From positions 1-32,690 of the forward strand of contig JALSRZ010000171.1 in NCBI GenBank assembly GCA_026984515.1: DNA of 32,690 nucleotides, read 5' to 3'. This document shows, piece after piece, positions 20,672-21,147 of this stretch (the first letter of the stretch is position 1; each line of letters opens with the position of its first letter). The position numbers and the translations under genes are program-made. The notes beneath the pieces are model-generated. The model had not been told where the DNA came from, searched no databases, and saw nothing but the letters and a program-made list of their open reading frames with translations. The DNA comes from Thiohalobacter sp. GTDB taxonomy: Bacteria; Pseudomonadota; Gammaproteobacteria; DSM-19610.

Positions 20672-20736
20672 GAGCACCGTCCTCCGGCGCGGATGCCGCA
20701 GCCTGTTTTCGCGGTCAGGAGGCCGCTCCCGCGGGG
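20668..20736. repeat. BIME-like pair of REP-type sequences
   Basis: A GTAGGAGC head at 20668-20675, followed by a GC-rich stem and GCGCGGATGCC, resembles gammaproteobacterial REP sequences. An inverted partner ends at 20736; read on the minus strand it is GGGAGCGGCCTCCTGACCGC. The head begins inside the stop codon of the PilZ gene. The two halves share GGAGC and CGCG features only loosely, so the REP label is tentative. Confidence 0.45.
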
Positions 20737-20794
20737 TTAACCACGTGACTGAAACATAAGCGGCAGGTATGTTTTGAGCCGGGTCGGGCAAGCC

Positions 20795-20909
20795 GGACAT
20801 GGAACCGGTATCACCCGGTCAGGACACGCAGAACCTGCCATCCCTGGCCGCTCGACTGCCGCATCCCTGCGGCAGACGGTCTTGACCGGGTGATACCGGT
20901 TCCATGTCC
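20795..20909. repeat. 115-bp long-stem palindromic element
   Basis: Perfect 27-bp arms occupy 20795-20821 and 20883-20909; the left begins GGACATGGAACC and the right ends GGTTCCATGTCC. Between them lies a hairpin CTGCCGCA-TCCC-TGCGGCAG (20856-20875). No second copy exists in the window. It has no ORF and no T-run. It sits between the BIME-like pair and the second 178-bp element in the same convergent junction. Confidence 0.85.
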
Positions 20910-20969
20910 TCACCTGCGGGCTAGCTCCAAAGTTAACGGGACAGCAGTGACTTTCGGTAATAGCCCTTA

Positions 20970-21147
20970 GCCCGGATTTCTCACCGACTTCCTGCTGCGG
21001 CGGCGTCATGCCGCGCGCTAAGCGGCGTTCACTCGGTCGGGCTGCTCGACATAGTGTCGACTATGCCTGCGCGGCCCTCGGTCGCGAACGCCGCTTATCA
21101 CACGACCTGCCACCGCCTCGTTACGGACCCCGGTGAGAAATGCGGGC
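20970..21147. repeat. 178-bp nested palindromic element, copy 2
   Basis: Same length, orientation and internal structure as 8391-8568, with about eight substitutions by hand alignment. The inner hairpin stem TCGACA/TGTCGA is kept while its loop changes from TCG to TAG. In one arm an A-to-G change keeps pairing as G-U. The trinucleotide TTA flanks both ends (20967-20969 and 21148-21150). The right-hand TTA is the stop codon of the minus-strand ABC transporter. Together with 20672-20969 it makes up a 476-bp gene-free stretch filled almost entirely by palindromes. Confidence 0.85.

Follow-up and report, generated by a model that had tools for sequence, protein, structure and literature searches.

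Related Systems

Several described kinds of sequence resemble the hairpin reported here. The first are the REP, BIME and REPIN palindromes, with their GTAG and CGTC families. Their description (PMC3733652) presents them as dispersed intergenic palindromes of Gammaproteobacteria, and the present hairpin is similar in this. Unlike those palindromes, it has a conserved T-shaped tip and much longer arms of variable sequence. It also lies in a MITE with 9-bp duplications, and no link to a RAYT (Y1 tyrosine transposase) was found for it.

A second kind is the template-switched inverted repeat. According to one study (PMC8604942), template switching between inverted repeats homogenises their arms and inverts their spacers. 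Both effects are seen here. The cases in that study come from coding sequences of yeast and have spacers only a few bases long, whereas the present family of hairpins is bacterial and mobile and has a loop of 53 nt.

The MITEs of IS4-family elements (NF033592, DDE_Tnp_1 and DUF4372) are a third kind. The element described here is like them in having terminal inverted repeats (TIRs), 9-bp duplications and no gene, and IS4-type elements with identical ends exist elsewhere. It differs in that the autonomous elements share only the TIR with it, the interior of the MITE being an unrelated hairpin family.

The terminal hairpin of parvoviruses is T-shaped, with a long stem, two small hairpins at its tip, and flip and flop orientations. 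The present hairpin may be compared with it in shape and in having both orientations; there is no replicon here, and the likeness is one of shape.

Of these kinds, the element belongs with the IS4-type MITEs and, by its homogenised arms and inverted loops, with inverted repeats probably shaped by template switching. In the literature searched, mostly outside subscription papers, there was no report of this hairpin family or of the TIR. It is very probable that a MITE of 234 bp carries at its centre a hairpin of an older, T-tipped family, and that template switching rewrites the arms and the loop of this hairpin.

The Hairpin and Its Element

The window, meaning the whole stretch of 32,690 nucleotides from Thiohalobacter sp. 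that was analysed, contains the hairpin on its forward strand, with a left arm at 20795-20825 and a right arm at 20879-20909. These 31-nt arms are 97% complementary. An earlier note on this DNA had described perfect 27-bp arms, and there are indeed 27 perfect outer base pairs, followed by a single G.T mismatch and an inner GAC/GTC. By chance, the window would be expected to contain about 3e-10 inverted repeats with 27 perfect base pairs and a spacer of at most 60. The loop (20826-20878, forward strand) holds two mini-hairpins, which make the tip T-shaped. One, CTGCCGCATCCCTGCGGCAG, has an 8-bp stem at 20856-20875 and was already recognised; the other, GCCATCCCTGGC, has a 4-bp stem at 20837-20848 and had gone unlisted. 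As single-stranded DNA, the hairpin strand folds at -52 kcal/mol against a mean of -18.6 for shuffled sequences (z -12.2), and its RNA fold gives a z of -11.6 against shuffles.

A repeat of about 234 bp has the hairpin as its core. The surrounding 212 bp occur at many places in the 3.37 Mb, 189-contig assembly of the same genome (G000), independently of a neighbouring 178-bp element. Thirty-nine copies were compared, namely the window copy and the 38 best matches, partial ones included. The true copy number is at least this high, because the comparison was limited to the best matches and some copies are cut off by the ends of contigs. Both 18-bp TIRs (CACTGCTGTCCCGTTAAC, at most 4 mismatches) are present in 22 of the 39, typically 234 bp apart. 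Flanking 9-bp duplications, with at least 7 of 9 positions identical, accompany 13 of these 22 complete copies and are absent in register from the other 9; shifted flank matches were seen by eye in three more (C160, C129 and C188). The repeat is short and without a transposase gene, and no match to an IS4-type transposase was found in G000. With its TIRs and duplications, it is therefore a MITE. The suggestion that the hairpin might be a separate non-autonomous element was thus right in kind, although the element extends beyond the hairpin and ends in TIRs rather than in the arms. Among the conditions for its refutation, the note named arms that occur nowhere else and a junction identical in all relatives; neither holds, since the arms recur in many other copies and, as described below, the junction varies.

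The window copy (20739-20949, forward strand) has only one intact end. Its right TIR (CACTGCTGTCCCGTTAAC, 20932-20949, reverse strand) is exact. The left end, about 23 bp including the left TIR, is called lost or degenerate because the best match to the TIR there has 7 mismatches. Beyond the right TIR, ACTTTCGGT (20950-20958, forward strand) stands where the right 9-bp target duplication would be expected, with no left partner identified; the evidence for target duplication comes from other copies.

The MITE had no match among plasmids and phages, and the exact 22-nt arm pattern occurred in no record of genome_contigs. One copy in G000 (L090, G000:C62:9176) has no more than a small part of the hairpin core. 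Two others (L020 in C93, L027 in C105) have loops 23 nt shorter, the missing part lying between two CATCCCTG repeats, as in slippage.

Source of the Ends

The ends of the MITE are also those of IS4-family transposase elements of about 1.27 kb in other genomes. TIR pairs enclose a transposase at a distance of 1271 bp in G015 (contig C12) and G020 (contig C63), and at 1273-1274 bp at two further loci (L207 and L208). The proteins of G015 and G020 were compared with family models, and both pass the cut-offs of NF033592 (IS4 family), DDE_Tnp_1 and DUF4372. The exact 18-bp TIR was found in 80 loci of other genomes, taken from 115 matching stretches. These include 30 TIR pairs, 22 of them with duplications matching at 8-9 of 9 positions.

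From these shared ends we infer that an IS4-family element is the mover of the MITE. Its transposase, acting in trans on the 18-bp ends, would spread the copies. Two findings count against this part of the explanation: no such transposase or autonomous partner was found in G000, and 9 of the 22 complete copies have no in-register duplication. Ten leftover TIR sites in G000 lie on MITE ends that are truncated or degenerate, and neither a second full TIR nor a transposase was noted there.

Alternatively, the repeat could be a REP element moved by a RAYT. Short palindromes in many intergenic copies are typical of such elements in Gammaproteobacteria, and 38 of 56 genomes, G000 among them, have Y1_Tnp. 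However, 30 RAYT loci taken from the listed matches were free of both the core and the TIR to a distance of about 1.5 kb, and direct 9-bp duplications with TIRs point to a DDE transposase. With no RAYT gene flanked by the repeat at these loci, this candidate was rejected as very unlikely.

In other, mostly gammaproteobacterial records, the same TIRs enclose elements of 132-345 bp with other palindromes. Such IS4-type ends surround palindromes of the GTCATTCCGGCGAAGGCCGGAATCCAG or CCCTCTCCC types at L159, L162, L164, L171, L172, L181 and others. Many IS4-ended MITEs with other palindromes share a GACATGAA box near position 80.

A Wider Family of Hairpins

Sequence comparison indicates that the hairpin is older than the MITE, which contains one member of a wider family of T-tipped hairpins. 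At up to 3 mismatches over 33 nt, the tip is present in 12 of 56 related genomes, and a reversed control pattern gave no matches. Over 46 nt, again at up to 3 mismatches, 7 of the 369 genomes from this class have it. The 58-nt core had no match among plasmids and phages, and the core pattern none among viral contigs.

Of 89 tip sites found, 8 were dropped for short flanks and 21 for non-canonical spacing (longer loops or disrupted ones). The 60 that were kept had been selected by at least 70% pairing over the inner 12 pairs. Their arms, about 28 bp long, pair at 91.5% within a locus versus 41.0% when swapped between loci; pairs 13-24, which lie outside the selection criterion, pair at 91-94%. 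Pairing drops beyond about 28-30 bp. Between loci, the arms have a median identity of 37%, against 88% for the cores. Paired changes are also found in the 8-bp mini-hairpin stem, which varies among relatives.

Since the arms differ at nearly every locus, the core might generate them itself, through an inverted duplication of target sequence. In this direction points one site (L273) where the arms extend over 97 bp and reach into a gene. The genomes are draft assemblies, often broken or folded back at hairpins, and L273, like L281, may be an assembly fold-back. At two sites that are filled in G007 and empty in G000 (L343 and L342), the empty site contains no trace of either arm; the gaps there have diverged. 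Five other sister-site comparisons (L345, L309, L308, L302 and L310) were left out, the sites being filled, replaced by another repeat or unalignable. The arms also share a loose consensus: GAC at the tip, TT at positions 8-9 and G at position 18 (28 of 30 non-redundant arms). Because of these few conserved positions, they look like diverged homologues and not like random target sequence. Duplication of target flanks is largely refuted by the empty sites, and is to be regarded as extremely improbable.

The T-tip hairpin also occurs in MITE-like frames with unrelated ends, of the CTAAATACGTGTTCCGAAT type in G054 (L352-L360) and the TACTAAGG type in G006 (L322-L341). At six sites (L327, L328, L287, L293, L307 and L311) the loop is lengthened by an insert (CCCCAGGGCAC...CACCTTGT) of about 40 nt.

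Probable Arm Correction and Loop Inversion

Long perfect arms had been expected to decay unless recent or selected. A third option has to be added, the correction of one arm from the other. Template switching between the arms predicts both paired arms and inversion of the loop, and both are found. Among the 39 copies in G000, 23 have a forward loop, 7 an inverted one and 9 an uncallable one, so that 7 of the 30 callable copies are inverted. In the pair C137 and C22, the arms match at 30 of 31 positions on each side, and the loops are identical at 53 of 53 positions if one is inverted versus 20 of 53 in direct comparison.

The same is observed at an orthologous site. The hairpin lies upstream of a gene that its sequence marks as presumably gyrA in 4 of 11 readable species. 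There, G000 and G007 match at 55 of 58 positions when inverted and 22 of 58 directly, while their left flanks match at 115 of 122. G000 and G006 have one orientation at this site, G007 and G012 the other. The hairpin is also found in a gap between genes that, from their motifs, we take to be aroA and cmk; here, three species have a common orientation and paired arm changes.

Template switching is the preferred cause of the paired arms, and we infer it from these patterns. During replication, a polymerase would switch template between the arms and copy one onto the other, sometimes inverting the loop. The arms could thereby stay nearly perfectly paired while diverging from locus to locus. Perfect arms occur in 4 of 6 inverted copies versus 1 of 19 forward ones (one-sided p 0.005, a post hoc figure for related copies that are not independent).

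A site-specific or homologous recombinase could also flip the loop by crossing over at the arms. The ends of the inversions are exact, and both states occur among sister elements, as such an enzyme would produce. The arms are unlike a recombinase site, however, in varying from locus to locus (37% identity), and the more frequent perfect arms of inverted copies fit a copying event. Inversion by a recombinase is thus quite unlikely.

Another explanation is selection at the RNA level, which would keep the arms paired in a terminator, a stabiliser or a regulatory hairpin that the MITE merely spread. The conserved tip, the stem changes in pairs and the persistence of the hairpin upstream of gyrA and between aroA and cmk would suit such a role, as would the position of the window copy between convergent genes. 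Against it, 23 MITE copies are spread over tandem (7), convergent (5), divergent (5) and undecided (4) gene contexts and the inside of predicted ORFs (2), by crude ORF calls, and both loop orientations occur at the one gyrA-upstream site. Departures from pairing on the core strand comprise 23 of the G.U type (G.T) and 44 A.C, so G.U-type pairs are not in excess. The mild excess of A.C would be G.U on the opposite strand and could hint at RNA pairing there. No Rfam family matched at its gathering score; there were only sub-threshold microRNA matches, of the sort that long hairpins tend to give. A structured RNA, as the earlier note proposed, is not supported by these results, and RNA selection as the cause of pairing is unlikely.

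Template switching does not account for everything. The tip and some arm positions are conserved, which points to selection or to recognition by a protein beyond it, and selection for pairing could be another source of the paired arm changes. The draft state of the genomes also weakens the reading. A broader reading, possible but tentative, is that T-tip hairpins are a distinct, self-correcting mobile class. In such a class, a protein or RNA role would keep the tip conserved in several families of Gammaproteobacteria, while template switching would rewrite the arms in pairs and flip the tip. The hairpin would be carried by MITEs whose ends are unrelated, of IS4 type in G000 and G007 and of the types noted above in G054 and G006.

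Compensatory stem changes are usually taken as proof of a selected RNA structure. A mobile DNA hairpin gives the same covariation signal, together with loop inversion, as arm-to-arm copying would produce. This makes the hairpin a natural case for telling selection and mutation apart when covariation is analysed, and a bacterial sensor of template switching.

The Junction and Its Other Repeats

The junction in the window differs among relatives. In G007, where the neighbouring ABC-transporter segment and protein are 97% identical, it is free of both the MITE and the 178-bp element. So is the junction in the other readable relatives, apart from G016, where a short piece resembling an end of the 178-bp element is present; in G004 this place is a run of N, and G013 is not readable. 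The insertion of the MITE here is young.

The 178-bp element (20968-21147) has inverted ends, CTTAGCCCGGATTTCTCACCG and CGGTGAGAAATGCGGGCTTAG. It begins 58 bp after the hairpin, close to the 60 bp first given, and the gap is not empty, as it contains the right end of the MITE (20910-20949). Among the matches listed, the element is found at 96-98% in at least 28 other places in the genome. Pieces of it lie inside or beside other hairpin MITE copies (C49, C136 and C134b).

On the other side of the hairpin, at about 20672-20735, is a REP-like palindrome of the GGAGCGGCC...GCTCC type. Since it is also present in G007 and G016, this palindrome is older than the insertion of the MITE and the 178-bp element.
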